This document shows, one piece after another, positions 1 through 44,388 of a stretch of DNA of 45,727 nt. Where the stretch lies: contig NZ_LDOS01000004.1 of assembly GCF_002077135.1 (NCBI RefSeq), forward strand, positions 1 through 45,727. Reading direction: 5' to 3'. Under the pieces are notes generated by a model. The model had not been told where the DNA came from. It did no database searches and saw nothing but the letters and a program-made list of their open reading frames with translations. A program made the translations under genes and the position numbers. This DNA comes from Metallibacterium scheffleri (lineage in GTDB: Bacteria > Pseudomonadota > Gammaproteobacteria > Xanthomonadales > Rhodanobacteraceae). Positions within the stretch are counted from its first letter, which is position 1; every line of letters starts with the position of its first letter.

Positions 1-439
1 CAGTTTCGAGTCAAAGACGATTCGATCACTGACAGCGGATAGCTCGCCCCGGTCGCCAACCTGGCCATATCGCTAACAAAGCGTGGCGAGCGAACCCAGT
101 GGAATAGGTATCCACCATCCAACCTCTCGGGACGCGGCCGTACCACGCAGAATCCAGTGGACGCGGTCGCGCCATCGAGCTTCTGAGGCACACGCGCAAC
201 CGCATTTAAGTTGGGTCGAACCGTCGACACGAGAACATCGTCAGTGCGAATGAGCTGCCGCGCCCTGCTTGGGGCGTCTACACAGGCGAGCTGTCGCGCA
301 CCTGTAATCGCCTTGGCATCCTGGTCGACTGCGCTTAGGTCGATGTATGTAAAGGCACTATCAGGGTCATCGCGCTCAGGCACCCAGGATGTCACCGCTC
401 CACAAGTTCCCCGATCGTGGCATGCGGCACAGCGCTCAT
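1..439 (-). CDS. hsdS: HsdS 5' part, left copy (partial)
   Basis: This is the beginning of the type I specificity subunit as it appears in the left terminal repeat; the same gene is complete at the other end. The ATG overlaps the hsdM stop codon as ATGA. In this copy a missing G near base 396 ends the frame after about 15 codons, while the other copy carries that G but lacks a C near base 411. Merging the copies restores one continuous frame. This is a duplicate view of one gene, not a second gene. Confidence 0.8.
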
Positions 440-589
440 CCGAGCATCCCCTCCAGCTCCTTCATCCCCTGCTGGATCTCCTCCTCCAGCGTCGCCAGCT
501 CGGCGAGGATCTCTTTCGGCGCGCGGTGTTCGATCGCCTCGTGCACCACTTCCTTGTAGCGGTTGAGCGAGAGGTCGTAGCCCTGAGCG
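1..589. repeat. Terminal direct repeat, left copy
   Basis: This stretch recurs as the last 590 bases of the window. Three one-base differences separate the copies: a G run near base 38, a G run near base 396 and a C run near base 411. All three are in homopolymers, as expected for long-read consensus errors. The repeat carries the 5' part of hsdS and the 3' end of hsdM on the minus strand, so genes run continuously from one end of the window into the other. The simplest reading is assembly overlap of a circular molecule or circularised contig. Confidence 0.93.
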
Positions 590-1972
590 GCGATGTCGGC
601 CTTGGCCACGCAGAAGCTCTGCGCGGTGCGCGGGCGTTCGCGCTCGGCGCCGTCGCGTTCGGCCCAGCGTGCCAGCACGTCGGGCAGGTTGTTCTTGGCG
701 TGCTCCTCCGCGCTGAGCGCCAAGCGCGGTGTTGGGCCGAGCTTGTCCTCGGCCAGCAACGGCGCGCGCTTGTCGTCGAGGCTCCAGCCGTCGGCCTCGA
801 CCTCGTAGAACCAGACGTGATCGGTGCCACCGGAGTTGGTCTTGGTGAACAGCAGATCGCGGTGGAGACGCCCGCGTAGGGCCGGAAGACACCGCCGGGC
901 AGCTTGACCACGGCATCGAGCTTCTGGTCCTCGACCAGCATCCGGCGCAGCGCCCTGTGCGCGGTGCTGGAGCCGAACAGCACGCCATCGGCACGATCAC
1001 AGCGGCACGGCCACCGGGCTTGAGCAGGCGCAGGAAGAGCGCGAGGAACAGCAGCTCGGTCTTCTTGGTCTTGACGATCTGCAGCAGATCCTTGGCCGTG
1101 TTCTCGTAGTCCAGGCTGCCGGCGAAGGGTGGATTGGCCAGCACCAGCGTGTACTTCTCTTCCTCGCCGGCGTGGTCCTGGGCGAGGGAGTCGCGGTAGC
1201 GGATGTCGGGGTTCTCCACGCCGTGCAGCAGCATGTTCATGCTGCCGATGCGCAACATGGTGTTGTCGAAGTCGAAGCCGTGGAACATGCGGTGATGGAA
1301 GTGCTCGCGCAGCCTGGCGTCGTGCAGGATGTCCGGGTAGCGCTCGCGCAGGACTTCGCCCGCCTCGACCAGGAATCCCGCCGTGCCGCAGGCCGGATCG
1401 CAGATGACATCGGTGGGCTGCGGCGCGGTCAGCTCCACCATCAGCCGGATGATGTGGCGCGGGGTACGGAACTGGCCGTTCTGCCCGGCGCTGGCGATCT
1501 TGCCGAGCATGTATTTCGTAGAGGTCGCCCTTGGTGTCGCGATCCTCCATCGGCCACGGCGTCGAGCAGGTCCACCACCTTGGACAGCAGCGCCGGCGTG
1601 GGGATGGTGAAGCGCGCGTCCTTCATGTGGTGCGCGTAGGTGGACTCGTCACCGCCCAGCGTGCGCAAAACGGGAAGACATGGTCGCCAACGACGACGTA
1701 CATGTCGCCCGGGGCAAGTGCTTGAAGCGCGACCAGCGCAGATCCTCGTAGGGGCGGCCCCTGGGATCGATGCCTTCGGGAACACCCGCTGTGCCATCGG
1801 CCTGTTTGAGCCGCGCGGACTTGTTCTCCTCCAGCGTCTGCAGGTCGTCCAGCCGTCGCAGGAAGAGCAGGTAGGTGATCTGCTCGATGACTTCCAGCGG
1901 ATTGGAGATGCCGCCGGACCAGAAGGCGTTCCAGACTTGGTCGATTTGGTTCTTGATGGTGCCGGTGATCAT
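436..1972 (-). CDS. hsdM: Type I restriction-modification DNA methyltransferase HsdM (apparent frameshifts)
   Basis: HsdM is the adenine-N6 methylating subunit of a type I restriction-modification complex and works with HsdS and HsdR. The start region ([20 protein letters not shown]) and the stretch [20 protein letters not shown] match the helical N-terminal domain. The SAM-binding motif [10 protein letters not shown] and the catalytic NPPF motif follow, then a C-terminal segment ending KELEGMLG. The total length, about 512 codons, is normal for the family. The reading frame changes about six times, roughly at 1712, 1672, 1548, 1515, 985 and 868, but the translation stays family-like throughout. 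The breaks therefore look like single-base consensus errors near the contig end and not genuine decay. The stop overlaps the hsdS start by four bases (ATGA), and hsdS continues at the other end of the window. Confidence 0.85.
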
Positions 1973-2081
1973 GCGGGCAGGGTTCCGGTTATCAGCGTGG
2001 TGCGCGACCGTCTCTCAGCACGCGTCCGGAGAGGCGATCAATGATGATCTAAAGCGTAATACGTTGGGCGCGCGATGCGAT

Positions 2082-3525
2082 TTACGCTGCTTCAGCCGGA
2101 ATCCTCACTGCAACCAGACCGTGTCCCGGGCGGTGTCTGGCAGAACGGCCAGCGATGCGTCGTGGGCGCGCTTCGCGCGGCGCAGGATCAATGCCAGTTT
2201 CGGCGATGCGCCGCGCATCGGTCTTGTCGAGCCTGCTTGCCGTAACAATCTCCGGAACGATCTTGTACAGCATGACACGCTTGATCTGGATGAGGCCAAG
2301 CGCATCGAGCGCAGGCTGGATCGCCTGCTCAAACAGCTTGGACTTGTGCTTGCCGTGCTGCACCCTGCGCGCCTGTCGATAGGCAGCAAGCACCTGATTC
2401 TGGACGTGCAGGATCTCGGGTTGCTTGCAGCCTGCATGATCCGCAACGAGAGCCAGCGAGGGCAGATAGCAGACCGCCGCGCGCCGCAGCAGATTACGCA
2501 GCGCAACTTGAAGGCGGACGGAGCCGCGAAGACGGCTGCGCGGTGTCAGCGGGAGATAGTCGAAGCCTTGCCAGAATCCGAAGAACGGCTCGCGCTGCGC
2601 GGTCCTGACCGGATCGAGCAGGATGTCCAGCACGGAGCAGCCATGCATCCCGGCCAGGTTCACGAGCATCTTGAGCGAAATTTTCGTGGCGGGTGCATAG
2701 GACCACAGCGATACGACCGAGCGCAGCGCGGACGGCAAATCCGCTCGATCACCGTGCATAACGCTGAAGGCTTCCAGAAATTGGTGGAAGCGATCTGCGG
2801 GCAATTTTTCTTGCGCGGGATCCGAGCAGAGCTCGATCACCTGGTCGACTTGCGATTCGACCCAGCGATCCAATGGGGTCAGGTGTGCGCTAACCGGCTC
2901 TGCGTCCCATCCGAGAGGTGTTCGGCAAAATCGACAGGCTCGCCGCGCCCCGGTAATGTGTACGGACCGGCTGCGCTTTGCCGCAGGATCGGCAGCGGTC
3001 CACGAGTTCACTGCCATGCAGCGAGCAGAGCTTCTTGATCTCGATCGACCAGGTGAGCGGCTCTGCAGATCTGTCCACATCCCACTGCAAGTAACACACA
3101 GGGCACCAGCGTCTGGCGCGCGCCGCACTGGAGAAGGCGTGCACGCCCATCACCGCGGAGCAGGCCCATGGCGTGCCATGGCGAAGGAGATCGTTCTGGC
3201 CGGTCAGCCGCTCGATGGCCGCGATACGCGCTTCAAGCTCCGTTTCATTGCACAGGAACGGAGACGACGTGCCATGCGGCGGAAAGAGGATCTGTCCTGC
3301 CGCAGCGTTGCAGATCTCGAGCATCCTGTCATGCGTGATGCCCACGAGATCCACGAGACGTATCAGGTAGTGATCGAGGCTCTCGACCTGTGCAGTCCCG
3401 GTGCCGCGCAGCTGCAGCGGCGGCAGCGCCGTCCACATCCTGGCCTGGGGTGGCGACAATGGCTTGAAGGATTGTTCGGGCGCCATCGTGCTTGACATCG
3501 ACATTGCAGTTATTTCGTGCATCAA
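2082..3525 (-). CDS. tniQ2: Second TniQ/TnsD-family target-selection protein (one frameshift)
   Basis: TniQ/TnsD proteins choose insertion sites for Tn7-like transposons and hand the target to TnsC. The N-terminal part contains the TniQ core (MWTALPP, QVESLDHYLIRL, ERLTGQNDLL) and a zinc-binding region with RRWCPVCY, LCSLHGSELVDRC and CGKAQP. After a frame change near 2945, in a GC-rich C run, it continues with CRFCRTPLGWDAEPV and a long C-terminal region ending at 2082. It is clearly related to the TniQ downstream of tnsC but divergent, especially in the C-terminal half. It is transcribed away from the tnsAB module and toward hsdM, 109 bp away. The single break is probably a sequencing error because the reading on both sides is well preserved. 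The start could also lie about 29 codons downstream, at the Met before WTALPP. Confidence 0.78.
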
Positions 3526-3901
3526 TGAGAAGTCGCCATGCTGGTCAAGCGTGAACGCCGCCGGTCATGGCGGGCCGGGCAGTAGAAGCCGCCTGGCCAG
3601 TGTGCCGTGGTGAGGCATGGTAGGTCTTGGCTTCGGTGCAGTACCGCTGCATATGCTCGACCAGCGCAGGCCCTGTCGATGCGCTTTTCAACTGCCGCAG
3701 GCTGGCCAACAGCACGACATTGATCCGACATGTCTCGGTGCCCATGGAGGAGAGGCCGTTATCGTGACCCGCAGGCGTCGCAATTCATGAGACGGAGGGC
3801 TGTAGTTCCGGGCGAGCAACGATTTGCCCGTCTTGACGCATGGTCAACCATAACCCTGCAAGCCGATCCATTGTCGATGCGCGCCAACAGGCACGTCTAT
3901 C
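3526..3901. other. Intergenic region without a recognised gene
   Basis: Only short overlapping open frames on the minus strand occur here, the longest about 66 codons, and none resembles a known family. The segment lies between the start of the second tniQ and the end of a minus-strand hypothetical gene, so it may hold the tniQ2 promoter. No repeat or strong hairpin was noticed. Confidence 0.4.
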
Positions 3902-4768
3902 TTAGGTCGTCGGGGGTGACGGTCGATGTGACTTCTTAAGAGTCGCCCTGCGCTGCTCGCGGCGCCGTTGCTGGTCGCGCCAGACTGTGCCGGGGATCCA
4001 GTGCGCAGGCAGCACGGGATCCTCGATCTCGACGAATCGATGTGTCAACGGATCGCGCGGCCGATATTCGCGGATCGGCTCGTGGTTCGGATCAGACGCC
4101 TGGCGCTTGATGATGTCGAGATCGACATCGAACATGATGAACGTCGAGATCTCCCGATACCTCACCGTTTCGAGCAACTTGAAGAGTTGATCGACGTGTG
4201 GAGCCAGCCATGACTCCTTGAGCGCCGCCGGCGCGGCCCGGTAAACATCCATACACGCCGTAAAGTGGTAGTCCAGCTCACCTTGAGCTTCACACATGCG
4301 TGCGACCCAGACCGCGGCGATGAATCCCCAGATGTCGCCACGCCTCACGAGACTCGACGTGTCCTTCTCGTGCAGGGTTGGCACCCAGTGACGACGCTCG
4401 CGGAGTTCCTCGTCGTTCGGGAATCTCCAAACGATCAGCGGAACACGCGTTTCGCGGTAGGGCGCGAAGAGCTTCCGTAACTCTTGAACGGTGAACGGGC
4501 GATCTTCAAGTAGCGGGAACAGTGGAGAATCGAAAACGGCCAGTGTGCCTGACAATAGGCGCTCGATTCGTTGTGCGGACAGGCGCGTCGGCAGGGCTTT
4601 TCCCGTTCGCCACTTGTCAGCAAGGCTCGATCTGGCTCGGCCGCGGTACACGCACTCCCTGACGAAATCCCGCCACGCAAGCCCTGATCGTCGTACTGCA
4701 TACTCAAGCCAGATCTTGGTGTGGAATTCACGAACTGGCTGGGCACCCTTACTTTTGCTGCCGTCCAT
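3902..4768 (-). CDS. Hypothetical protein beside the Tn7-like module, possible HTH N-terminus
   Basis: I do not recognise this 288-residue protein. The chosen ATG (MDGSKSKGAQPVREF) leaves a 138-bp divergent gap to the HTH gene at 4907; a longer frame to 4903 would leave almost no promoter. The first 70 residues are basic and helical (LAWRDFVRECVYRGRARSSL), compatible with a DNA-binding domain. The middle and C-terminal parts are mixed alpha/beta with a basic tail. It sits between the second tniQ and the tnsAB operon and is divergent from the small HTH gene, so a regulatory or accessory role in transposition is possible, but this is inferred only from position. Confidence 0.55.
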   Translation of the reverse strand: MDGSKSKGAQPVREFHTKIWLEYAVRRSGLAWRDFVRECVYRGRARSSLADKWRTGKALPTRLSAQRIERLLSGTLAVFDSPLFPLLEDRPFTVQELRKLFAPYRETRVPLIVWRFPNDEELRERRHWVPTLHEKDTSSLVRRGDIWGFIAAVWVARMCEAQGELDYHFTACMDVYRAAPAALKESWLAPHVDQLFKLLETVRYREISTFIMFDVDLDIIKRQASDPNHEPIREYRPRDPLTHRFVEIEDPVLPAHWIPGTVWRDQQRRREQRRATLKKSHRPSPPTT

Positions 4769-4906
4769 GTGACGAAGGGTGTCAACGAAACTGGTACGCA
4801 CGTGAGTCAAATTCTCGCTGGTGCACTCGATCGCAATTGACGCATCGAGCGCTGTTGATACTGAGCAATACTCCGCGAGCGACAGACCCGCCGGAGTGGC
4901 CACCGC

Positions 4907-5191
4907 ATGGCAACCAAAAGACTAGCGCAGACCAGCGGCGACCGTGTGCAGCGAGTTGAGGACGGCTTGGTTCTCAGGTACGGCCCCTTGCTGACCATGG
5001 CCGATGTTTCAGAGGTTCTGCGCTACCCAAGCGTCCAAGCGGTGCAGAAGGCTCGGCTGCGGGGCAGTCTGCCGATCAAGATGGTTCGAATCCCGCCTCG
5101 GCGAGGCTGGTTCGTCAGCAGTCGCAGCCTCGCAGAGTTTCTTGCAACCGTGGAATTGCAGTCGGCAGGCGAGGGCTGCTCGAAAGAGTAA
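4907..5191 (+). CDS. Small helix-turn-helix protein upstream of tnsAB
   Basis: This 94-residue protein has an HTH-like core, LLTMADVSEVLRYPSVQAVQ, followed by a basic wing-like segment (KMVRIPPRRGWFVSSRSLAE). The arrangement resembles small excisionase-like or activator-type DNA-binding proteins. A purine-rich GGAG lies about 12 bases before the ATG. The gene precedes the tnsAB-tnsC-tniQ operon on the same strand, separated by about 250 bp holding two strong hairpins. A role as regulator of the transposition operon is plausible from context. The family assignment is not certain. Confidence 0.6.
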   Translation: MATKRLAQTSGDRVQRVEDGLVLRYGPLLTMADVSEVLRYPSVQAVQKARLRGSLPIKMVRIPPRRGWFVSSRSLAEFLATVELQSAGEGCSKE

Positions 5192-5292
5192 GGCCTCACC
5201 GCCATGAGCTGATGGTTGGGAGTGGGTTAGGCACCAGCACAAGTCTCAGGAGCATCCGGTGGACACGAGCTAACTGCAAATCGCTTCAACGA

Positions 5293-5357
5293 AAGAGCCC
5301 ACGGGTGGCAACCCATGGGCTCTTGGAGGTGCAGACATTAGACCCGTCAGCACCTCC
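5293..5357 (+). promoter_or_regulatory. Two tandem hairpins in the tnsAB leader
   Basis: The first hairpin pairs 5293-5306 with 5311-5324 (14-bp stem, one mismatch, loop GGCA). The second pairs 5325-5332 with 5350-5357 (GGAGGTGC with GCACCTCC). They abut directly and lie about 80 bases before the tnsAB start. There is no clear T-run after either stem, so a classical terminator is not obvious. They could be leader RNA structure, an attenuator or a protein-binding site. Confidence 0.55.
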
Positions 5358-5438
5358 AGTGTACGCGGCACGAGCCGCGAGTCAAGTGCGCCCTGCGGTT
5401 CGGGTAGGGGCGCTTTTCCTCAACACTTGGAGGCAGGT

Positions 5439-7910
5439 ATGAATGATCAAGTATTGACGCCAGCAGGCGGGATTGGCACAGCGCACGAGCGCAGTTGGCG
5501 TGGGGAGCGGGAGGCGGTTTACCAGACGCTTGCCCTGACTGCCGCCCAGCAGCGCTCCATAGAGGAATTGGTTCGCTTGAGCCCTGCCCGCGCGGTGGGC
5601 AAGGGCGCTTTACGCAACATTCGCGGGAGTCTGCCATCGAAAAAGTGTGAGGCGCTGCGGCTCTTCGAGTCGCACACGGTGGAGCGGATGTTCCTGTATG
5701 AACTCGAGTTGGACCCGCAGGTCGTCGGGTATGTCACGCAGGTCCCGCTGACCCGTGTTGAGCGGCGTTTGCCCAACGGGCGCCGGCACATCGCGGCAGC
5801 GACCCTGGATGTCCTGGTCTTCTCGCGCAACGCCATCACCCTCGTGGAGTGCAAAGACCTGAGCTGGTTGCGCGCGCATGAGGATCGCAAGGGCTGGTCC
5901 TGCAACGACGGAACCTGGAGCTGTGAACCCTATGCACGCTGGGCGGTGGCGCATGGGCTTGCCTTCCGCGTCTGGCATCCGCCTTTTCCCTTTGCCATCT
6001 ATCTCCGAAACCTGGAGCTTCTCTTCACGCGCTTGGGCGAACCGCTCGACAAGGCAGCCGAGCCTGCAGCAGCCAAGATCCCGAGGCTGCTGAGAAACCA
6101 CACCTTCACTTGGGCCGATTTACGTGCGCAACTGCCTGGCATCGATGGACGCTCGTTGACAATTCTGTTGGCCCAGCGGCAGCTCTTTGGCACGATCCAG
6201 AGTGATCCGATCGGCGCAGATGCATTCCGCATCTTCGGGGACGAAGCACAGGCGCTGGAAGTCGATCAGGCCCTGCTTCACGCGCGCGCGCGGATGCTGG
6301 GGACCCCAGGTGAGGAAGTACCGGCCGCCACGCCATCGACGGCAGTAGCGCATTGCGCCATGCGCCGACTGCAGCGTTTGCAGGCCATCGAGAAGGGCGA
6401 GGCCAGGCCGACGCGGCGCATGCGCAAACTCGCCAAGCAGGTTGCCGAGGCCGTGCAGAAGGGCGTCACGCCCTATGACGCTTGTCTGCCCTCCTATGCC
6501 GTGAGCGGGAATCGCCTGGCGCGCCTGGATGAGACCCAACAATCTTTGTTGCGCAGGGCAGTCAAGGATTTCCAAGGTCGAACGCCACCAATAGCGATCA
6601 CCAGTGCGTGGACTCTGCTGGAAACGGAATGCAGTGCGGCCGAAGCCGATGCGCCGTCGATCACGACCTTCCGGCGTGCCCTGCGTGCTGAGGATCCAGC
6701 ACTTAGGGCTTTGAAAACGGGCGGCATGCGTGCCTACCAGGCCACAGCGGCGCGGAGTGATCCGCGCCTGCGTTCCGGCGCGGCGAGCGGTTTCCTGCAC
6801 ACGGTCCACATCGACAGTTCGAAGCGCGATGTGCGCGCCTCGTCCGAGCTGAAACGACTGATCGACCAGCGCCGCGCACTCAAGGACGACGCCGGGCGCG
6901 GCTACGACAGCTTCTACATCGCTGTGGACGAATCCTCCGACTCTGTCGTCGGCCACGCATTTGTTGTTGGACCCTCACGCATCGAGGGTGTGGCCTTGCT
7001 CATGCGCGAGATCGTGCATCGGCATGGCGCGCTGCCGCGTGCCATCGTGGACGATCGCGGTCCGGACAACCAAAGCCGCTGGCTGAAGCAATTCGCTCTC
7101 AGCCGGGGCATTACCTTGCTTGATACGATGTCTGGAGGAAGTCGATCCAACAGCCAGGCTGAGAATCGCATCGGCCAGGTCAACGCGCGTGTCTCCCAGC
7201 GGTTGCCGGGGAGCACGCTACCGGATAAGGCCGGACGCTCGGTCGATGGCAAATTCAAAAGCCTGATGACGGCCAAGCTCGAGTTCTTGCAGCTCTGCGG
7301 GCTGATCGAAGCATTCCTTTATGAGGACGTTCCGCACATCCCGAATGCACAGGGAGAAACTCCGCAGCAGAGGAAGGAAGCCGCGGTCGAGCGCCTCGGC
7401 ACGCTGGGTATCCCTTGCCTCTTCGATGATGAGCTGCTGTTTGCAACGTCACCGCGCTGGACGGGTGGCTTCGTTGCAAACGAGAGACGCGGCATCCGGC
7501 TGGGCAATCACGATTTCACTTCGCTCGAGGTGCGCAACGCACTGCGGACAGGCACGCCCCAGGAACTGCGATTGGACGCCGCCGATCCCAGCGTGCTGCA
7601 TGTCATCATCAATGGGCAGCGGCTCAGGGCGTTTCACGGCAAGGTGCAACAACGCGCCGCACTGAGTGCTGCGGAGCGCCTCTGGCTGCGCCTGGTCGAG
7701 CCCGCCATCCAGGCCGCCAACCGCGACCAGAAGACTCAAGTCGAGCGCAAGCTGAGCCAGCGCATGGAGCGTGCGCGCGCGGCGGCCGACGCGCATACCC
7801 ATCTGCATCCGTCGGCGACTGTGGATGCCAGTGAAGTTTCGTCCATGGAAGATCCGGCAACGGCACGCTGGACAGAGCTGTGGGATGACGCCGCTGCGGA
7901 GATTCGCTGA
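5439..7910 (+). CDS. tnsAB: TnsA-TnsB fusion transposase of a Tn7-like element
   Basis: This 823-residue protein combines the two nucleases that excise and join a Tn7-like transposon. The N-terminal part is TnsA-like, with candidate catalytic residues E77 (in FESHTVERM), D124 (LDVLVFSRN) and E137/K139 (LVECKDL), the order expected for a TnsA endonuclease. The rest is TnsB-like, with HTH-type segments and an RNase H-fold DDE core. Candidate catalytic residues are D459 (VHIDSSKRD), D539 (VDDRGPDN) and E575 (SNSQAENRIG), spaced 80 and 35 residues apart. The ATG at 5439 has a good GGAGG five bases upstream. Its stop overlaps the tnsC start by one base (TGATG). TnsA-TnsB fusions are known in several Tn7-like lineages, including some CRISPR-associated ones, but no cas gene is present here. 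Confidence 0.9.
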   Translation: MNDQVLTPAGGIGTAHERSWRGEREAVYQTLALTAAQQRSIEELVRLSPARAVGKGALRNIRGSLPSKKCEALRLFESHTVERMFLYELELDPQVVGYVTQVPLTRVERRLPNGRRHIAAATLDVLVFSRNAITLVECKDLSWLRAHEDRKGWSCNDGTWSCEPYARWAVAHGLAFRVWHPPFPFAIYLRNLELLFTRLGEPLDKAAEPAAAKIPRLLRNHTFTWADLRAQLPGIDGRSLTILLAQRQLFGTIQSDPIGADAFRIFGDEAQALEVDQALLHARARMLGTPGEEVPAATPSTAVAHCAMRRLQRLQAIEKGEARPTRRMRKLAKQVAEAVQKGVTPYDACLPSYAVSGNRLARLDETQQSLLRRAVKDFQGRTPPIAITSAWTLLETECSAAEADAPSITTFRRALRAEDPALRALKTGGMRAYQATAARSDPRLRSGAASGFLHTVHIDSSKRDVRASSELKRLIDQRRALKDDAGRGYDSFYIAVDESSDSVVGHAFVVGPSRIEGVALLMREIVHRHGALPRAIVDDRGPDNQSRWLKQFALSRGITLLDTMSGGSRSNSQAENRIGQVNARVSQRLPGSTLPDKAGRSVDGKFKSLMTAKLEFLQLCGLIEAFLYEDVPHIPNAQGETPQQRKEAAVERLGTLGIPCLFDDELLFATSPRWTGGFVANERRGIRLGNHDFTSLEVRNALRTGTPQELRLDAADPSVLHVIINGQRLRAFHGKVQQRAALSAAERLWLRLVEPAIQAANRDQKTQVERKLSQRMERARAAADAHTHLHPSATVDASEVSSMEDPATARWTELWDDAAAEIR

Positions 7911-8911
7911 TGGATCTGCTTGAGCATCCGCATTTTGTCGAGGCGCGCGCACGGCTGCGCGCCGTGCTTGGTAATCCAACAGCGGGGCGCATGATCTTTC
8001 TGGTCGGTCCCACCGGGGTCGGCAAGACGACGTTGCGCCACGCCGTGTTCCGCGATCTGGTCGGTAGCCCACAGCAGTGGGGCCAGGGCCGTATTCCCCT
8101 CATCGAGGTCTACGCCGAGCTGCCGGCCAACGCGTATTTCACCTCCAAAGCGTTTGCCCAGACGCTGGTGGAGATGGTCACGTTCCCACGGCTCGGCTGG
8201 ATGAAAGGCGGTGCCCATCGCGAAGCGTGCGAAGTCTTCGAACGCGAGGTGGATCAAGCGCGCGCCCAGCTCGATGGGGTGGATTATTCGCGCGTGCCCG
8301 AGACACGGCTCTGGGGCATCTTTGCGCAACTGGCGCGCACACGCGCAGTCAAAACGGTCTCGGTGGAACAGGCGGCGTCCCTGTGCGTGGTCCGCCGCAA
8401 CAAGCAGCCCGCCGATCACATCCTGCACTTGATGGGGATTGCCGAACAGCTCGAGCTCAACTTCGTGCTGACGGGTGTGACAGCGATGTCCGAGCTGTGG
8501 ATGACGCGCCCGGAGATCCGCCGACGCGCGCACATCGTCTTGATGCGACCGTATTCCCCCTATCGCGAGGAAGATCGCAAGCATTTCGTGGCACTGCTGC
8601 GTGCGATCGAGAACGAGTATGCCGTCGAGCAGGGCGTGCTGCGCGGCATGATCGAGGATCTGTTTGTCGAAACCGCAGGGATCGTCGGCGAGCTTATCCG
8701 GCTGGCAGACGACAGCAGGATGCGCGCCCAGCAGTCCGGACGGGAAGCGATCAGCGAGGTGGACCTGCGCGCCTCCTTTCACAATGACGCCGCCGCGAAA
8801 CAGATGTGGGAAGACGTCCGTCTGTTCGAGGAACTGTGTGCACCCGGTGATCCGCGCGCGCTGAAGAAGCAGGTCCTGCATGAATTGCCACCGAAGGAGC
8901 GGCGCGCATGA
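7910..8911 (+). CDS. tnsC: TnsC/TniB-family AAA+ transposition regulator
   Basis: This 333-residue ATPase should bridge the target selector (TniQ) and the transposase (TnsAB). The Walker A motif VGPTGVGKTT lies around residues 32-41. Conserved downstream segments include LNFVLTGVTAMSELW, compatible with the sensor region of this family. The length fits TniB/TnsC-like ATPases. It starts on the last base of the tnsAB stop codon and its own stop overlaps the tniQ start by four bases (ATGA), so the three genes are translationally coupled. No truncation is visible. Confidence 0.87.
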   Translation: MDLLEHPHFVEARARLRAVLGNPTAGRMIFLVGPTGVGKTTLRHAVFRDLVGSPQQWGQGRIPLIEVYAELPANAYFTSKAFAQTLVEMVTFPRLGWMKGGAHREACEVFEREVDQARAQLDGVDYSRVPETRLWGIFAQLARTRAVKTVSVEQAASLCVVRRNKQPADHILHLMGIAEQLELNFVLTGVTAMSELWMTRPEIRRRAHIVLMRPYSPYREEDRKHFVALLRAIENEYAVEQGVLRGMIEDLFVETAGIVGELIRLADDSRMRAQQSGREAISEVDLRASFHNDAAAKQMWEDVRLFEELCAPGDPRALKKQVLHELPPKERRA

Positions 8912-10167
8912 AGGAATTCCTCTGGACGGCCTTGCCTCCGCAGCCGCTGCGGCACACGGCCACATCGCAAGTGGAGTCGCTTGCACACTACGTGCTGCGG
9001 ATGAGTGAGATCTTGGGGCTGCCGCTCGCATCGCTGATCAAGCAAGCTGGCATGCAGAAGGCGGCTTGCGCGATTCCATGCTGCGGACTGCTGCCCTGCA
9101 CCGAGCAGACCCTTCGGGCCATGGAGCATCTCACCGGTCAAAATGACCTTCGATGCGGCACCCTGTGGGCGGTCTCCCGAGCGCTCAGTCTGCATGGCGC
9201 CGGCACAAAAAGTCGGCCGCGGCGCTGGTGTCCAAACTGCTATGCGGAGCAAACCCGGGAAGAGTGGAGTGAGCCGCTGGCCTGGTTGATCCGATTGATG
9301 CAGACCTGCCCCACGCACGGTTGCGCACTGGTGGATCGATGCCGAATCTGCGGCGACACGCAGCCGCATGGCGACTCGGTGGTTCAACGCCGCCAATGTC
9401 GCCAATGCGCAGCATCGCTGGGATGGTGCACCGGTTCGGCGCACCTGGTGCAAAGCGCACTCGAGCGCTGGATCGACGCCCAAGTCCTAGCAATCGTCAA
9501 CTATGCCGCAAATCCGCAAAGTCCACAGCTTCCGGCCGACGCATTCCACAAGGCATGCCTGCATTTGCAGCGCATCCCGGAACGCTGGGCCCTTGTTCCC
9601 GCCGTAGTCCGGTCTCGCTTGCGCCGAGGGACCCGACGTCTCTTGCCGCCGCCGACGCTTGAATTGTTGCTGGAAGTCGCGGCGACCCAGCATTGTGACG
9701 TGGTGCCGCTGCTGACGGCGCCTGATGCCACCTTCCAGAGCGCGCTCTGGTCCCCGCTATCGGACAGGCAGGACGCTGGCTTGCGCAGACCGGCAATGCC
9801 CCGGCTACGGCTACGGGTCGTGTTGGATCACCTCATGGGTGAAGGGCCAGCCGCCCACCTCCCCCCGGTGGTGTGCATCCTGTCGCGCCTGGGTCTGGAG
9901 CTAGACGAGGCGCGACAAGCGGAGCCCGTTCGCGTCGCGCGGTACCAGCAGCGCTACCTCCGTCAGGGTCCGAGTGCCAGGCTGCGCCGGCTCGACATCG
10001 CGGTTGCGCGGACCCTGCGGTCCGTCGCATTGACGCAGCATCTGGTGCCGGCGCCGGCGCATTTGATCCGCTGGCGACAACGCCTGACGACTCAGCTGGG
10101 GGCCGTCGATGCGAGTCGCGTCTGCGTGACCGCGGTCGAACTCAGCAGCTTGACGGTGGAAGCGTGA
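8908..10167 (+). CDS. tniQ: TniQ-family target-selection protein
   Basis: This 419-residue TniQ has the family N-terminus (LWTALPPQPL, QVESLAHYVLRMSEILGLP, EHLTGQNDLR) and a zinc-binding region with RRWCPNCY, CPTHGCALVDRCRICG and RQCRQC pairs. The C-terminal half is helical and ends TAVELSSLTVEA. TniQ recognises a target site or an adaptor and recruits TnsC. It closes the tnsAB-tnsC-tniQ operon. Copies of its 3' end recur at 11411-11490 and 22114-22485, and a full-length divergent paralogue lies at 2082-3525. The length is intermediate between short TniQ and long TnsD proteins. Confidence 0.88.
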   Translation: MKEFLWTALPPQPLRHTATSQVESLAHYVLRMSEILGLPLASLIKQAGMQKAACAIPCCGLLPCTEQTLRAMEHLTGQNDLRCGTLWAVSRALSLHGAGTKSRPRRWCPNCYAEQTREEWSEPLAWLIRLMQTCPTHGCALVDRCRICGDTQPHGDSVVQRRQCRQCAASLGWCTGSAHLVQSALERWIDAQVLAIVNYAANPQSPQLPADAFHKACLHLQRIPERWALVPAVVRSRLRRGTRRLLPPPTLELLLEVAATQHCDVVPLLTAPDATFQSALWSPLSDRQDAGLRRPAMPRLRLRVVLDHLMGEGPAAHLPPVVCILSRLGLELDEARQAEPVRVARYQQRYLRQGPSARLRRLDIAVARTLRSVALTQHLVPAPAHLIRWRQRLTTQLGAVDASRVCVTAVELSSLTVEA

Positions 10168-10473
10168 TGCTGCGATATCGTCATGCCCGCTTTGCAGAGC
10201 ATTGTGTCAGCGCCATACACACCGTCTGCGCAGAGAGGGCCCGCTTGCGCGACCGCATGGGTCCGTCAGACCGATCGACCAGTCGTCAGCGCGGGCCACC
10301 GATTCCATATTGCGCAGGTTTCGGCATTTCCTCACGAGGGGAAGCAAAGGGTCCCGACAGCGTCGGTCATGGGGTGACTGCACAGCAAGCGCCGCACCAT
10401 GGCCTGCCTGTCGCATTGAATGGTCAAATTCACGCGTGAGCGCGTGGAATCAGAAGCGAGGTCCATTGCACGT
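10168..10473. other. Intergenic region between tniQ and the first SseB gene
   Basis: About 300 bases with no recognised gene. Short open frames occur in several phases but none resembles a family. The second SseB gene has an XRE regulator immediately upstream, whereas this one has nothing comparable. A promoter for the SseB gene may lie here, but I cannot point to a clear one. Confidence 0.4.
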
Positions 10474-11214
10474 ATGGCATCTGCATCCAAACTAGAAGCA
10501 TTGCTCGAGGTCGCTCGCGCTGCCAAGACGTTCGAGGCCATGGCCCAGGCGGAGCATGCATTTTTCGTTGCGCTCCTGGACGCCACGGTCTACGCCCATC
10601 GGCCGAGCGGCCCGATGCCGCCCGGACGAATACGGTTCATTCAGATCAGGCGACCCGACAATGGCCAGTTGGTTCTTCCGTTTTTTACGGATCAAGCGCA
10701 GGCCGAAGTGCCGCTATCGCCCGAGCGAGCCTTGATCGAGGCGACTGGCCGTCAGTTGTTCGAATGGACGCGGGGCGCGACATTGATCATGAACCCGAAT
10801 CGGGAACAGGCCGTGCTTTACCCGCCGGAGATTGACGCCTTGCTGGCCGGGCGACCGATCGGCACCTTGTCGAGGGAAACCATCCCGCGCGATACGCTCA
10901 CCGATGGATGTCCCCCATCGGTCCCCGAGGACGACCTGGTCGAAGTCCTTCGAGCGTGCTTTGCCGCCGAGGGCACGGTCCGGGCGGGCTATCTGATTGA
11001 GGTCCGGCGCTCGTGTGGCGAGTCGGAGGAGGTCTCTCTCTTGTTGGTCGTGGTGTCGCATGGACGCCATGCAGAGCGGTTGGCCCACGTGATCTCGCTC
11101 GCGCTCGCAACGAGCAAACCGACGACTGCACTCCCCCTGTCGGTGGCATTTCACGATGTCGACCAAGATCTGCCTGCGATCTGCGACCGGGGCATTCAGT
11201 TCTATGGAAGCTAG
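10474..11214 (+). CDS. SseB-domain protein, copy 1
   Basis: This 246-residue protein resembles SseB N-terminal-domain proteins. It has an early helical segment (MAQAEHAFFVALLDATVYAH), a central beta-rich part (IRFIQIRRPDNGQLVLPFFT) and the conserved stretch LIMNPNREQAVLYPPEIDAL. It ends with GIQFYGS, nearly the same as the GIQFYGT end of a second copy at 32179-32913, to which it aligns along its length. The ATG at 10474 was chosen because it matches the start of that paralogue; a longer frame begins at 10420. The molecular function of this family is not firmly known. The gene lies between tniQ and a copy of the tniQ 3' end. Confidence 0.72.
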   Translation: MASASKLEALLEVARAAKTFEAMAQAEHAFFVALLDATVYAHRPSGPMPPGRIRFIQIRRPDNGQLVLPFFTDQAQAEVPLSPERALIEATGRQLFEWTRGATLIMNPNREQAVLYPPEIDALLAGRPIGTLSRETIPRDTLTDGCPPSVPEDDLVEVLRACFAAEGTVRAGYLIEVRRSCGESEEVSLLLVVVSHGRHAERLAHVISLALATSKPTTALPLSVAFHDVDQDLPAICDRGIQFYGS

Positions 11215-11410
11215 CCCTTCGGGCCGGTCGGCATGCAGCCACGCCCACCCTTCCGATCTTCTGAACAAAGGCACAGGCACGAGAACTCACCCCCAATTGC
11301 CGACACGTTTCGCCTGGATCGCATCGGCTTCGAGATCGGATGCGCACGCAACCGTTCGGCTCAATCGCGGATCCGCATGTGGGCTGACGGTGCATGGTGC
11401 AGACACGCTG

Positions 11411-11490
11411 GCAACAAAGCCTGCCGAATCAGCTGGGGGCAGTCGATGCGAGTCGCGTCTGTGTGACTGCGATCGAACTCAGCCATCTGC
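11411..11490 (+). pseudogene. Duplicated fragment of the tniQ 3' end
   Basis: About 80 bases here match the end of tniQ (10075-10155) at roughly 80-85 percent. The shared core is CAGCTGGGGGC followed by GTCGATGCGAGTCGCGTCTG. No longer frame is present. Together with the intact tniQ end, this fragment flanks the SseB gene, suggesting that the SseB segment entered by recombination or insertion next to a second tniQ copy now lost. The rest of 11215-11567 shows nothing recognisable. Confidence 0.75.
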
Positions 11491-11567
11491 CCGCACCAGG
11501 GCGTCGCCGCTGTTGCACTGGATCCTGCAGGTAGCGCCGAGCTTCGGTGCTTGCGGAAAGCCCGCGC

Positions 11568-12101
11568 CTACCCGGGCTGAAGCGCTAGCACCGCGCGCTG
11601 CAGATCCGCCAGCGCGCCCCTGATCGCGCTGGAGACCGGCGGCGAGTCCACCATGCCGCTTTCCGTCAGGTTCGAACCGAGCAGCGGGATGCTGATCGAA
11701 GCCGCCTCGACGATGACGGCCGACATGGTGCGCAGTGTTTCGCGCAATGCAGCGTCAGCGTGCCGTGCGCGCGGCGAAGCGTTGAGCACGGCCTCCGGCT
11801 TGTTGATGAAGGTTTCGCTGCCGACCAGCCAGTCCAGCGCGTTCTTGATGCTGCCGCTCACGCCGTGTGCGTATTCCGGGCTGGCGATCAGCAGCGCGTC
11901 GGCAGCTGCAACCTCGGCATACAGTGCGGCGACCGGTGGCGGCGTGTGCGGCTCGAAATCGGGATTAAAGAGCGGCAGGTCGCCAATGCGGGCAAACAGT
12001 GTGATCGCCATGTCGGGCGGAGCCAGGCGTGCGGCTGCGCGGAGCAGCGCCGAGTTAATGGATGCGGCCCGCAGGCTGCCGGAAATCGCAAGAACTTTCA
12101 T
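11568..12101 (-). CDS. NADPH-dependent FMN reductase family protein
   Basis: This 177-residue flavodoxin-fold protein has the phosphate-binding signature ISGSLRAASINSALLRA at the N-terminus and the flavin-contacting segment SPEYAHGVSGSIKNALDWLV near residues 75-95. These are typical of NAD(P)H-dependent FMN/quinone/chromate-type reductases acting in the cytosol. The length is normal. It stands alone on the minus strand, divergent from the large nuclease-like gene at 12466. It looks like an ordinary metabolic or stress gene among the cargo; the substrate cannot be deduced. Confidence 0.85.
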   Translation of the reverse strand: MKVLAISGSLRAASINSALLRAAARLAPPDMAITLFARIGDLPLFNPDFEPHTPPPVAALYAEVAAADALLIASPEYAHGVSGSIKNALDWLVGSETFINKPEAVLNASPRARHADAALRETLRTMSAVIVEAASISIPLLGSNLTESGMVDSPPVSSAIRGALADLQRAVLALQPG

Positions 12102-15740: not shown

Positions 15741-16003
15741 TGAAAACTGACCATCATGCCGGTTCGCGGCTGAGCCATTCCTACAAGAATCCGCAAGCCA
15801 TGGCAAACGAGTGCGGATTCTTAGAAATGCTGGCCGCGGTGCTGGTGATTGTTGACCGCTGACGATGGTATTGAGTCTGCCGCGTTGTTGCCCTCGAAGT
15901 AGTTGCCGTGTTGCGGCATGATCATGCGGATATCCGGCAGCACAGAACCTCGGCTGGGACGTGGGCGACGACATGAATGACGCGCGGGCCGAGTACGGGA
16001 TCG

Positions 16004-18421
16004 ATGGTTGAGCCCGATTCCATGGCGGCGCTGCAGGCCGAAAACGCCCGCCTGATCGCGTTGCTGGAATCGCGCGGCATCGATTGGCGGTTGCCAACGA
16101 AGCCCGCGCCGTCCGTGCAAGAGCCCGAGCCGTCGCGTCTCTCGACGCAGGCGAAGGTGGCGCTGTTCCGCCGCCTGTTTCGTGGCCGCACGGATGTCCA
16201 CGCGCTGCGCTGGGAAAGCACGGCATCGGGCAAGTCGGGTTATTCGCCGGCCTGCGCCAACGACCGATTTACCCGCAAGATCCCCGTGCATGGCGACGCG
16301 GCCCGCAGCGCGTGGGCCGGCGATGGTCCGGGTGCATCGCGTGCCGAGGTTTGCCAGAAGCCACGCATCAAATGCGCCGACTGCGCGCATCGCCTGCTGG
16401 TGCCGCTGTCGGATGCGGTGATCCACGACCATCTGGCCGGCAGGCACACGATCGGGATCTACCCGCTGCTGGAAGACGACACTTGCTGCTTCCTCGCCGT
16501 CGATTTCGACGAGGCCGAATGGCGGGAAGACGCTCGCGCGTTCGTGCAGTCCTGCGATGAGCTCGGCGTGCCGGTCACTCTGGAGATTTCCCGATCCGGC
16601 AATGGCGCCCACGCCTGGGTGTTTTTCAGCGGCAGGGTGCCGGCGCGCGATGCACGGCGCCTGGGCACAGCCCTCATCAGTCACACCTGCGCGCGCACGC
16701 GACAACTGAAGCTCGACTCCTACGATCGATTGTTCCCCAATCAGGACACGATGCCCAAGGGCGGCTTCGGCAGCCTGATCGCCCTGCCGCTGCAGAAACG
16801 GCCGCGTGAGCACGGCGGTAGCGTGTTCGTCGATCGTGACCTGCGCCCGTATCTCGACCAGTGGGCTTACTTGGCCTCCATCCAGCCCATGGCGACGCAC
16901 GACATCGAGCCGACCATCCTGCGTGCCTCGGGTGGCGCGCATCCGCTGGACGTGACCTTCATTGACGCGGAGGATCTGGCCACGCCTTGGCAGCGAGCCG
17001 TTCCGGCACAGCAGAAACTGGCGGGCACGATGCCGGACACGCTGGCGGTGACGCTGGCGAATCAGCTCTACTTCGAGAAGGCACGGCTGCCCCAGTCGCT
17101 GGCCAACCGCCTGATCCGCCTGGCCGCGTTTCAGAATCCGGCGTTCTACAGGGCGCAGGCCATGCGGCTGTCGGTGTGGGACAAGCCTCGCGTCATTGGC
17201 CGCGCCGAGAACTATCCGCAGCACATCGCGCTGCCGCGTGGGTGTCTCGAGGCCGCACAAACATTGCTGACCAACAACGGCATCCGTTGCGAGCTGCGCG
17301 ACGAGCGGTACGCGGGTGAGGCGATCGCGGTCGGCTTTGCCGGGACACTGCGCCTCGATCAGGAAACGGCCGCCGTCGCGATGCTGCGCCATGACGCGGG
17401 CGTGCTGTGCGCGCCCACCGCCTTCGGCAAGACCGTGATCGCCGCGGCGATGATCGCGCGGCGTGGCGTGAACACGCTGGTGCTGGTGCATCGTACCGAA
17501 TTGCTCAAGCAATGGCGGGAGCGTCTGCAGGCCTTCCTTGGCGCCGGCAAGGGTGTCATTGGCACCATGGGCGGCGGCAAGGCCCAGCTCACGGGCAGGA
17601 TCGACATCGCCGTGATGCAGTCGTTGTCGCGGCGCGGCGACGTCCATCCGCTGGTGGAGCGCTACGGCCAGGTCATCGTCGATGAATGCCACCACGTTGG
17701 CGCGGTGTCGTTCGACGCCATCCTGAAGCAAACCAAGGCGAGGTATGTGCTCGGCCTGACCGCGACGCCGATCCGCCGCGATGGCCAGCAGCCCATCATC
17801 TTCATGCAGTGCGGGCCGATCCGGCACATGGCCTCAAACCCAGCCGGTGCTCCGCGCGATCTTGTGGTTGTGCCACATATGCGCGACGCGCGCATCGATG
17901 TTCCAGTCACGGCCGGCATTCAAGATGTGTTTCGACACCTTGCCCACGACGCGGAGCGGACGGATGCCATCGCGACAGAAGTCAAGCGTGCCCACGATGC
18001 TGGCCGCAAAGTGCTGGTGCTGACCGAGCGCACCGATCATCTCGACGCCATTCAGGCCGCTTTGGACGGGAAGGTTCCGCCGCCATTCGTCCTGCACGGC
18101 CGCCTGTCCAGGAAGCAGCGCGCGGCGCTGATCGCGGAACTCGAAGCACTGCCGTCTGATGCGCCACGCATTCTGCTGGCCACCGGCAAGCTCGTGGGCG
18201 AAGGCTTCGACCACCCGCCCCTCGACACCCTGGTGCTGGCGATGCCGGTGTCGTGGAAAGGCACCCTGCAGCAATACGCGGGCCGCTTGCACCGGGAACA
18301 TGCCCGCAAGAGCGCTGTGCGCATCATTGATTTCGTCGATGCTGGCCACCCGGTGCTGCTGCGCATGTGGGACAAGCGCCAGCGCGGCTACCGGGCGATG
18401 GGGTACCGCGTGGCCTCGTAA
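16004..18421 (+). CDS. TOTE-type primase-helicase
   Basis: This 805-residue protein joins an archaeo-eukaryotic primase-like domain to a superfamily 2 helicase, the architecture of TOTE conflict-system proteins. The start shows the helical LQAENARLIALLESRGIDW. The primase part carries D167 and D169 (LAVDFDEAE), the SGNGAHAW motif around residues 198-205, and KLDSYDRLFPNQD followed by GGFGSLIALPLQ. A possible zinc site precedes it (CQKPRIKCADCAHR). The helicase part has a Walker A variant APTAFGKT (K476), DECH (560-563), LGLTATP and QQYAGRLHRE. ATG 16004 was preferred over 15977 because it begins the conserved region. TOTE proteins are predicted to act in genome conflicts; the reaction here is inferred from the domains. 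Confidence 0.82.
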   Translation: MVEPDSMAALQAENARLIALLESRGIDWRLPTKPAPSVQEPEPSRLSTQAKVALFRRLFRGRTDVHALRWESTASGKSGYSPACANDRFTRKIPVHGDAARSAWAGDGPGASRAEVCQKPRIKCADCAHRLLVPLSDAVIHDHLAGRHTIGIYPLLEDDTCCFLAVDFDEAEWREDARAFVQSCDELGVPVTLEISRSGNGAHAWVFFSGRVPARDARRLGTALISHTCARTRQLKLDSYDRLFPNQDTMPKGGFGSLIALPLQKRPREHGGSVFVDRDLRPYLDQWAYLASIQPMATHDIEPTILRASGGAHPLDVTFIDAEDLATPWQRAVPAQQKLAGTMPDTLAVTLANQLYFEKARLPQSLANRLIRLAAFQNPAFYRAQAMRLSVWDKPRVIGRAENYPQHIALPRGCLEAAQTLLTNNGIRCELRDERYAGEAIAVGFAGTLRLDQETAAVAMLRHDAGVLCAPTAFGKTVIAAAMIARRGVNTLVLVHRTELLKQWRERLQAFLGAGKGVIGTMGGGKAQLTGRIDIAVMQSLSRRGDVHPLVERYGQVIVDECHHVGAVSFDAILKQTKARYVLGLTATPIRRDGQQPIIFMQCGPIRHMASNPAGAPRDLVVVPHMRDARIDVPVTAGIQDVFRHLAHDAERTDAIATEVKRAHDAGRKVLVLTERTDHLDAIQAALDGKVPPPFVLHGRLSRKQRAALIAELEALPSDAPRILLATGKLVGEGFDHPPLDTLVLAMPVSWKGTLQQYAGRLHREHARKSAVRIIDFVDAGHPVLLRMWDKRQRGYRAMGYRVAS

Positions 18422-22113: not shown

Positions 22114-22485
22114 TTGGATTGGACTATCTGTTGGACGAAGCGCCGGCCGCCTATCTACCGCCGCTGGCGTCTATCGCCGCTGGCGTCCATCCTGCCGCGC
22201 CTGGGCATGGAACCGGCACAGGCTCGACAAAGCCGAACCTGGACGGGTCGCGCGCTACCCCAGCAGCGCTACGTCCGGCAGGACACGAGCGCACGGCTGC
22301 GCCGGCTGGTGGACATTGCGGTGGCGCAGACCCTACATTCATCCGCTCTGAACAGCACACTGGTGCCGACACCGGCGCAGCGGGTGCAATTGCGCTAGCG
22401 CCTTGCGCGGCATCTGGCGGTAGAGGATGTTGGCAGGGTGTGCGCGACAGCGATGGACCCGGGCAGCCTGCCGGTGGTTGGGTGA
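22114..22485 (+). pseudogene. TniQ C-terminal remnant
   Basis: This frame parallels the C-terminal third of the tniQ product: PRLGMEPAQARQ, LPQQRYVRQDTSARLRRLVD, VAQTLHSSAL and VPTPAQRVQLR match LSRLGLELDEARQ, YQQRYLRQGPSARLRRLD, VARTLRSVAL and VPAPAHLIRWR. It continues in frame after one TAG to RLARHLAVEDVGRVCATAMD and ends VVG. It is therefore a truncated, nonsense-broken third tniQ lineage, distinct in sequence from both full-length copies. Confidence 0.82.
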
Positions 22486-22653
22486 TGCAGACCACAGTTC
22501 AGCGTGCTGCGTTGCAATATAAGCACATTGAGATACAAGAAACTTCCTGAACGCGTCGCGCCATTCTCATTTGACAACAGTTCTCATTGAAAATCATGAA
22601 GTGTAGTGAAAACAATGGATTGACGCTTCAGCACCGCTCCAAAAGTCAGTGAC

Positions 22654-22804
22654 ACCAAAGTTGGTACAGGGCGTTTTGACACCAAAGTCGGTGCATTTGG
22701 TACAAACTTTGGTGTTTCGACCACAAGTGGTCGAGAAACCATAGTCGGTACACGAAAGAAACCAAAGTCGGTGTATTTCCCCCGGTTTCTGCACAAACTA
22801 TGGT
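22654..22804. repeat. Six-site iteron-like array
   Basis: Six 12-base sites related to ACCAAAGTCGGT start at 22654, 22681, 22702 (inverted), 22738, 22761 and 22793 (inverted). Spacing is about 20-36 bases. A dyad GACCACAAGTGGTC (22719-22732) lies in the middle. Each site is itself a near-palindrome (ACCAA...TTGGT). Such arrays are typical of transposon ends bound by TnsB-like transposases or of replication iterons. The array follows the TniQ remnant by about 170 bases. No coding gene was recognised in 22486-22924. Confidence 0.75.
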
Positions 22805-22924
22805 TTTCCTGCACTGCAGCACGGCAGTTGCCGCCGCGATTTATCGCTACGCGCCCAGCGGCCGGTAACGGCCCTTTGCGGACATTCAGCGTTCGAGCTA
22901 AGCGGGCGATGACGGCAGTACCGT

Positions 22925-23048
22925 GGCTGAAGCCGGGCCGCTCGACCGGCATTTCCCAGCCCATCTCATACTCGAAGTCGGTGAAAATCAGCTGGCGCTT
23001 CTGTCTCTTGATGAGCTTGATCAGGTCACGCAACCGTCTGCGCACCGA
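22925..23048 (-). pseudogene. Fragment of an hsdR gene
   Basis: The minus strand encodes VRRRLRDLIKLIKRQKRQ, FTDFEYEMGWEMPVE and PGFSHGT, matching the segment of the intact HsdR encoded around 37511-37627 (MRRRLRDLIKLIERQKRK, YTDFEDEMGGEMPVE, PGFSQGT) at roughly 85 percent. Neither side continues the gene. It is a relic of a second, related type I restriction subunit or of a partial duplication. Confidence 0.85.
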
Positions 23049-35501: not shown

Positions 35502-35690
35502 TCAGAGTGGGTCCGGCCGGTTCGGCTGCTCATCAGGCTTCGCCGGTGCAACGCAGCCGACCGGGAACGCTACGGGCGGCGGGCACAGCGCGGCCCAGTC
35601 GTTCTCGGCCTGCCATAGCGTTACCTGCGCGGACGACGCGTCGCCCAACCACGGACCGGGGTTCCACAGGTCGATCGGGTCACGAGGCAT
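35502..35690 (-). CDS. Small protein overlapping the Ntn-hydrolase gene end
   Basis: The 62-residue frame begins MPRDPIDLWNPGPWLGDASS and is rich in Pro and Trp, with no recognised family. Its ATG lies 11 bases inside the 3' end of the Ntn-hydrolase-like gene in another frame, the classic arrangement for translational coupling. It could be the third gene of that small operon. Support is only the overlap and the open frame. Confidence 0.45.
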   Translation of the reverse strand: MPRDPIDLWNPGPWLGDASSAQVTLWQAENDWAALCPPPVAFPVGCVAPAKPDEQPNRPDPL

Positions 35691-43546: not shown

Positions 43547-43555
43547 GACGCCCCC

Positions 43556-44386: not shown

Positions 44387-44388
44387 GG

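Follow-up and report, generated by a model that had tools for sequence, protein, structure and literature searches.

In Tn7-like transposons, TnsAB cuts and joins the DNA, TnsC bridges, and a TniQ protein picks the site. Two TniQ-family genes per element are not a hallmark of CRISPR-associated transposons (CASTs) alone, as the excerpts of Faure et al. (2023; PMC10293859) used here report 998 dual TniQ-TnsD loci that are not only CASTs. For TnsAB-fusion elements related to types I-B2 and I-D, various non-CRISPR targeting modes are described in the excerpts used of PMC11406308. Here we analyse a 45,727-nucleotide stretch of Metallibacterium scheffleri (contig NZ_LDOS01000004.1, positions 1 to 45,727, hereafter the window), which carries a Tn7-like transposon with a TnsAB fusion, two TniQ proteins (TniQ1 and TniQ2), and a pair of divergent genes for a helix-turn-helix (HTH) protein and for a conserved protein that we call Unk. 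A dual TniQ together with a TnsAB fusion and without CRISPR is an already described kind: in view of the 998 published loci a dual TniQ without CRISPR is not new, and the present finding extends the branch of PMC11406308, as far as the excerpts go. What is added is a fully delimited natural example with two selectors of more than 400 amino acids under selection, and the occurrence of the Unk-HTH pair across transposon families. Our reading of the whole, to which we assign a probability of roughly 0.55, is that TniQ1 directs the element to the intergenic region between def and lysM, that TniQ2 serves a second target, and that the Unk-HTH pair exerts control.

With the type I-B2/I-D CAST branch the element shares the TnsAB fusion, TnsC, two TniQ-family proteins and the best profile matches in the Protein Data Bank (PDB). 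It differs in that no CRISPR array or Cas effector set was seen in the window, both TniQs are longer than 400 amino acids, the site is def-lysM and not a tRNA gene, and the host is a proteobacterium. The dual TniQ-TnsD transposons, as portrayed in the excerpts of Faure et al. (2023; PMC10293859), are similar in having two TniQ-family genes and one TnsC, consistent with in situ duplication; however, the usual pair there consists of one protein of more than 400 amino acids and a smaller one, in contrast to 419 and about 470 amino acids here, and TniQ2 is here encoded leftward, behind Unk. The element is thus a CRISPR-less-looking relative of the TnsAB CAST branch that has two full-length selectors and of which both ends, the host site and its empty counterparts are defined, and therefore the role of the second TniQ is directly testable.

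The genes tnsAB, tnsC and tniQ1 form a rightward operon on the plus strand, with an overlap of one base between tnsAB and tnsC and of four bases between tnsC and tniQ1 in the list of open reading frames (ORFs). Upstream of tnsAB lie the HTH gene on the plus strand and, on the minus strand, unk and tniQ2. A first-pass annotation had already read from the sequence this overlapping operon and the second TniQ on the opposite strand with an HTH gene and an unknown gene in between, and the ORFs are indeed found at these places:

5427 to 7910, plus strand: tnsAB fusion; the frame is open from 5427, with an ATG at 5448 and 820 amino acids from this ATG.
7910 to 8911, plus strand: tnsC, AAA+ ATPase (AAA_16 at 7e-7 and TniB at 0.003, both below the cut-off).
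8908 to 10167, plus strand: tniQ1, 419 amino acids (PF06527, TniQ, at 7e-8, above the cut-off).
4907 to 5191, plus strand: HTH_17-like DNA-binding protein, divergent from unk (PF12728 at 0.0044, below the cut-off; also own profile).
3902 to 4768, minus strand: Unk, conserved accessory protein, 288 amino acids from the ATG at 4768; the frame is open up to 4903.
2890 to 3525, minus strand: N-terminal piece of TniQ2 with the TniQ domain (PF06527 at 5e-5, 24.3 bits, below the 27-bit cut-off).
2082 to 3128, minus strand: C-terminal piece of TniQ2, frame broken in this contig (single-ORF homologues at L006:6704-8122 and L041:1493-2899).

Among the tns genes, only TniQ1 exceeds the Pfam cut-off when single sequences are searched. 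A profile of 13 TnsAB proteins has its best PDB match with 9bw1_M ('Integrase', 6.7e-86; best stretch at profile positions 289-780), and a profile of 15 TniQ proteins matches 8v32_J ('TnsD', 7e-34) and 8fcu_P ('TniQ', 1e-29), the entries being compared by names and scores alone. We take these three entries to be the I-B2 PmcCAST set. The TnsA part of the fusion has a weak NERD-like match at 118-161 (0.02, below the cut-off), plus a motif read by eye. The module is classed as Tn7-like from its predicted components, which are a TnsB-type transposase with a TnsA nuclease, an AAA+ TnsC, and TniQ/TnsD.

The window represents the entire contig, and its bases 1-589 recur at 45138-45727, which results in a circle of about 45.1 kb. 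Alignment of the sequences following tniQ within the genus revealed a block of three transposase-like sites with the end ...TTTCGACCACA, directly before the host LysM gene. This block recurs at window positions 22654-22725, and the left end begins within two bases, so that the right end (RE) and the left end (LE) abut near 22,725, with arrays of transposase sites at both ends and inverted tips:

22642 to 22725, plus strand: RE, with TnsB-like sites at 22654 (plus) and 22681 (plus, direct) and at 22699 (minus, inverted); the tip is ...CGACCA or CGACCACA.
22726 to 22815, plus strand: LE, TGGTCGAGAAACCATAGTCGGTACA..., with sites at 22738 (plus), 22761 (plus) and 22790 (minus).

When closed to a circle, the window makes up one entire Tn7-like transposon with a length of about 45.1 kb. 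The RE block adjoins lysM on contig C1 of the same genome (G000) and in the genomes G128, G130, G131, G133 and G134. The LE block is also present at C1:600221 and, on contig C12 of G134, between def and the island; the deformylase was identified by Pfam in G134 and the LysM protein in G136. Since def is followed by the LE in G134 and the RE precedes lysM, the site is the def-lysM intergenic region. Strong RE copies (at least 73 bits, n = 10) occur in six of the 13 genomes of the genus, and each of the ten is found next to lysM, within the def-lysM island at a tandem junction, or in the window contig. In five further genomes the site is empty, with def and lysM adjacent and without the element (L066-L070); the remaining two, G135 and G137, count with neither group. 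The intergenic region between def and lysM is the site to which the element homes, and the ends and insertion sites that the first-pass annotation had proposed to look for in relatives are both defined within the genus. The RE on contig C12 of G134 had been considered as a second chromosomal site and was rejected, because C12 also carries def and is read as the left flank of the same island. In addition, on contig C42 of G134 the stretch of host DNA that begins with lysM and reaches a tRNA-like 3' end (by eye) is inverted relative to C1:578525-591055.

The second TniQ had been annotated as full-length. This is correct for the C1 copy (one ORF, 472 amino acids) and for L041 in G134 (one ORF, 468 amino acids), but not for the window itself, in which tniQ2 consists of two ORFs (3525-2890 and 3128-2082). 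Comparison of window positions 591-11800 with C1 yielded 16 single-base indels, two of which, at the margins of the comparison, are possible artefacts, and three substitutions. The other fourteen indels are confined to positions 855-5495, close to the contig end; all three substitutions lie beyond 9500. Indels near the contig end without substitutions look like unpolished sequence, which would also account for the broken methyltransferase gene, and the frame breaks in TniQ2 therefore look like sequence errors. The C1 copy has frame breaks of its own, in Unk, so that neither copy is clean. Between C1 and G134, dN/dS is 0.28 for TniQ2, 0.23 for TniQ1, 0.14 for TnsAB and 0.12 for TnsC, which argues that TniQ2 is under purifying selection. 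That TniQ2 is a true pseudogene, an outcome raised in the first-pass annotation, is rejected for this lineage on the basis of the intact ORFs in C1 and G134, this dN/dS value and the error-like indels. The AlphaFold model of TniQ2 is poor (mean pLDDT, the per-residue confidence, 51), residues 321-440 are better (block means 67-88) and modelled as helices, and the top fold match is the TnsD 8v32_J, with an E-value of 7e-4 but a TM score of 0.17.

TnsAB is present in 29 of 233 genomes of the family, own genome included, and the gene order of the window module is kept in G131 and G134. The operon HTH-tnsAB-tnsC-tniQ is found again beyond the genus, where other host-like genes follow it. By Pfam, these are a histidine kinase gene (L046) and a PadR-type gene (L053), and genes of these two kinds were recognized by eye from translations near L047, L050, L054 and L055; they are suggestions for further insertion sites. 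A second TniQ was found in one of the 13 TnsAB loci outside the genus (L050), which were read at 12-20 kb and two of which (L047 and L055) have contig ends close upstream. The first-pass annotation had named relatives lacking the second TniQ as evidence against its reading, and this outcome is partly borne out, L050 being the locus that has one. In a tree of 20 rows from one bacterial family, which has a midpoint root and long branches, TniQ2 clusters with TniQ1 and TniQ3 of the genus (96/93), and the two TniQs of L050 are unresolved long branches. The tree supports an origin of TniQ2 within this lineage, by local duplication of an ancestor of TniQ1, and both the grouping of TniQ2 and the L050 rows would fit the repeated in situ duplication published for dual-TniQ elements (PMC10293859). 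TnsAB was also sought on plasmids and this candidate was rejected, as the 33 matching records all have less than 60% identity and one matches over 80% of the query.

The Unk-HTH pair has a wider distribution than the second TniQ. Among the 233 family genomes, 14 contain Unk, at a total of 16 loci, and the HTH gene lies beside it, in divergent orientation, at all 16. The transposase next to the HTH gene is a TnsAB fusion at seven loci, belongs to a separate TnsA-TnsB-TnsC-TniQ set at six and is of the IS1595 type at three. At the six loci, tnsA and tnsB were assigned from gene order and size, with weak HTH-domain matches for TnsB in the loci tested, and TniQ was below the Pfam cut-off or recognized by profile; L125 was judged as a locus from its 87% DNA identity to L124. 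Two of the IS1595 loci (L117-L119) have Pfam matches, and L118 shares a 3.3-kb unit with L117 (95%) in a different setting; no convincing terminal inverted repeats of this unit were found. A second TniQ was not seen at 12 of the 16 loci in the stretch read (L120 and L125 were read in part), and where the neighbouring transposase is of the IS1595 or IS21 family the TniQ profile detected nothing. Upstream of TnsAB, the HTH gene is present, alone or together with Unk, in 20 of 24 loci examined, a count that left out six of the 29 TnsAB genomes (G069, G077, G131, G145, G155 and G174). In the class, two profiles each detected Unk in 2 of 369 genomes, counting the own genome, which is a lower bound because the first look scores few candidates per genome.

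A plasmid search with the HTH protein gave 13 records, seven of which were opened. In five of these, IS21 istA/istB genes lie next to the HTH gene, with a divergent Unk member (istA/istB of L129 by eye). The first Unk profile matched L130 (5e-8) and L129 (1.7e-4), and L131, L133 and L134 only after iteration (1e-4). At the other two, L128 and L132, which have the HTH gene and a Tn7-like gene order, no match to the Unk profile was obtained for the divergent ORF, which was rejected as Unk. With the IS21-linked Unk of L133 as query 19 plasmid records were obtained, of which 15 were examined besides the four already opened; 13 of the 15 have an HTH gene beside Unk and 12 have istA/istB next (part of istA in L145 is annotated as two hypothetical proteins), the exceptions being L149 (IS3 next), L150 (no profile HTH) and L153 (neither). 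Another 13 listed records were left out of the Unk counts. The Unk protein of the window gave no match in the plasmid search, and viral contigs contained no relative of Unk. Two more Unk-HTH pairs, on contigs C5 and C2, precede IS21-type genes in the own genome. In L147 and L148, inverted-repeat arrays flank the unit, beyond istB at one end and beyond Unk at the opposite end, which places the pair inside the IS21 element; such clear arrays were obtained in two of 11 IS21-linked loci tried, and the nine others gave none (L143 with unsuitable bounds). Loci with the pair beside IS21 or IS1595 transposases are L142, L143, L145-L148, L151, L152, L154-L156 (in L156 the pair alone was read) and L117-L119. 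Because the pair is common to loci without a second TniQ and to IS1595 and IS21 elements, it is, on this distribution, not specific to TniQ2.

From gene order and the HTH family we read the pair as a portable transposition-control module. Extra ORFs, probably with regulatory functions, are typical of IS21 and IS66 members according to the excerpts used of PMC3281130, and a published description of the Unk-HTH pair was not found in the literature searched. HTH regulators have been reported for other Tn7-like elements, i.e., the MerR-type repressor CvkR of a type V-K CAST (PMC9938897) and Xre regulators of type I-F3 CASTs (PMC11406308); in the portions of these papers used they belong to other HTH families, in contrast to the HTH protein here, which has Unk as its partner and recurs with IS21 and IS1595. 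A more far-reaching and still tentative proposal is that the pair is a transferable module that has been taken up, divergently upstream of the transposase, by unrelated DDE transposons (Tn7-like elements with TnsAB or with TnsA and TnsB, IS21 and IS1595 families), and that its leftward arm has here gained a duplicated selector, so that a single bidirectional switch would decide both on movement of the element and on its destination. The shared pair points to a common control layer across transposon families that are usually studied apart.

In the reading that we prefer for the element, TnsAB would cut and join, TnsC would bridge, and one TniQ would select the site. The selector for def-lysM is most likely TniQ1, whose gene closes the rightward operon, and TniQ2, which has the length of a TnsD, most likely directs insertion to a second target, probably a mobile replicon. 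Two targeting routes for two TniQs, as already envisaged in the first-pass annotation, are the natural reading, and a two-pathway logic for paired selectors as well as a non-CRISPR TnsAB branch are documented in the excerpts of PMC11406308. The Unk-HTH pair would divide expression between two arms, HTH-tnsAB-tnsC-tniQ1 to the right and Unk-tniQ2 to the left, and by this split it may also set which selector is made.

Several points weigh against this reading. A genus search with the RE revealed no insertion of this family outside def-lysM, and the target of TniQ2 is therefore unseen. The assignment of def-lysM to TniQ1 leans on its operon position. Searched singly, the TniQs match 8fcu_P (2e-8 and 1.5e-10) better than 8v32_J (7e-6 and 1e-8), with their N-terminal parts only, so that the likeness to TnsD derives from length and profile. 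The second TniQ of L050 is encoded upstream on the same strand, and thus a leftward arm is not general. Lastly, the target duplication is either 4 bases with symmetric tips (CAAG in G000, CATG in G134) or 5 bases, the length expected for Tn7-like transposons, with tips offset by one (ACAAG and ACATG).

The roles of the two selectors might be swapped, with TniQ2 acting at def-lysM and TniQ1 serving mobile targets or another site. The higher conservation of TniQ2 between G000 and G134 (79% versus 68% for TniQ1, and 90% in the middle third of TniQ2) would fit a fixed chromosomal site; however, in relatives with a single TniQ the selector occupies the place of TniQ1, last in the tns operon, and we regard the swap as rather unlikely. 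It is improbable that TniQ2, instead of selecting a new target, acts as a regulator or decoy, which competes for TnsC or confers immunity against further copies. Such a function would agree with the lack of a second-site insertion among those found, and TnsD-directed homing in CyCAST is strongly reduced when TniQ is present (PMC10293859, in the excerpts used), but the existence of tandem copies shows that immunity would be leaky at best, and TniQ2 retains a full-length C-terminal region that is modelled as helices (321-440, pLDDT 67-88).

An adaptor role had also been suggested for the 288-residue protein or the HTH protein, and TniQ2 and Unk could form a pair like TniQ-TnsF of Tn6022, with Unk binding the target. 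In both cases an extra unknown protein is encoded near a TniQ, unk and tniQ2 adjoin on one strand in L041 (G134), about 105 bases apart, and an N-terminal stretch of Unk is HTH-like by eye (HTH_31 match in one of 15 members, 0.0074). In contrast to TnsF with its 498 amino acids, Unk has 288, and it is also found with elements for which a TniQ was not seen. TnsF is marked by zinc fingers and an inactive tyrosine recombinase; Unk has no significant match in Pfam, NCBIfam, PHROGs or PADLOC, and its AlphaFold model is useless (pLDDT 43). The 12 of 16 Unk loci without a second TniQ seen, three of them beside an IS1595-type transposase, and the plasmid loci with Unk beside IS21 speak against such a pair, which we consider highly improbable; Unk as an adaptor of TniQ2 was dropped on the distribution of Unk, and the suggestion for the HTH protein finds no support at the same loci either.

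A CRISPR-like repeat was not found in the window, in which no 20-mer occurs three times and none twice at 40-100 bases. PADLOC scans of the window proteins showed no Cas effector set, and neither did a wider scan of most ORFs among the best 25 of 156 families. CAS-labelled PADLOC models matched two cargo proteins, a primase-helicase (PrimPol 3e-115, Cas3g 6e-8) and a restriction subunit (typeIV_DinG 1e-5), which we read as general primase and helicase similarity. On these scans the element has no sign of CRISPR-Cas, which falls short of proof for the initial statement that no cas gene is present.

Window positions 1-11807 have a second copy on contig C1, where the order is an older element A, RE, LE, element B (with the module of the window), RE and lysM. 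Element A is degraded and contains a TniQ2 fragment, a TnsC fragment and TniQ3. Element B has 33.1 kb, the window element 45.1 kb, and their cargo differs. Tandem insertion at one site explains the array on C1. The RE-LE junction occurs once in the window and once in C1 570001-690000, and because the former is identical to the chromosomal tandem junction, an unplaced tandem copy fits the circular contig as well as an excised circle. Between the window and C1 copies there are no substitutions at about 39500-45137 and at 591-9500, and 219 between 36981 and about 39500; this uneven distribution may reflect recent exchange between the copies. Two fragments of tniQ follow the module:

11406 to 11483, plus strand: tniQ 3'-end fragment (90% to 10069-10146).
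22114 to 22398, plus strand: fragment of the tniQ C-terminus before the RE.

Further tniQ 3'-end fragments are present in L006 (16005-16088) and L007 (2755-3060). It looks as if cargo had been gained via repeated tandem insertion and deletion. The cargo and companion genes include:

10420 to 11214, plus strand: SseB-like gene, recurrent companion (PF07179 at 1.2e-6).
37028 to 40444, minus strand: type I restriction subunit (PADLOC REase_I at 1e-171).
40441 to 41631, minus strand: SoFic-like protein (PADLOC, 4e-122).
392 to 1972, minus strand: type I methyltransferase in broken pieces (N6_Mtase, HsdM_N).
15977 to 18421, plus strand: TOTE-type primase-helicase (PF22548 at 1.9e-92).

The SseB-like gene is also found near other Tn7-like modules, just after tniQ or beyond Unk (L056-L058 and L121-L124), the assignment being by Pfam for the window, L057 and L121 and by eye for L056, L058 and L122-L124. 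Defence genes are abundant in the cargo (37028-45542, 392-1972, 15977-18421 and 40441-41631). The element also encodes a proteasome-subunit-like protein (35683-36489; PF00227, 1.2e-11) and a GAF-GGDEF-protoglobin-EAL protein (27461-31678), and it contains a 127-bp direct repeat (22918-23044 and 37503-37629, 89%), which is also present at C1:606936-607062 (84%).

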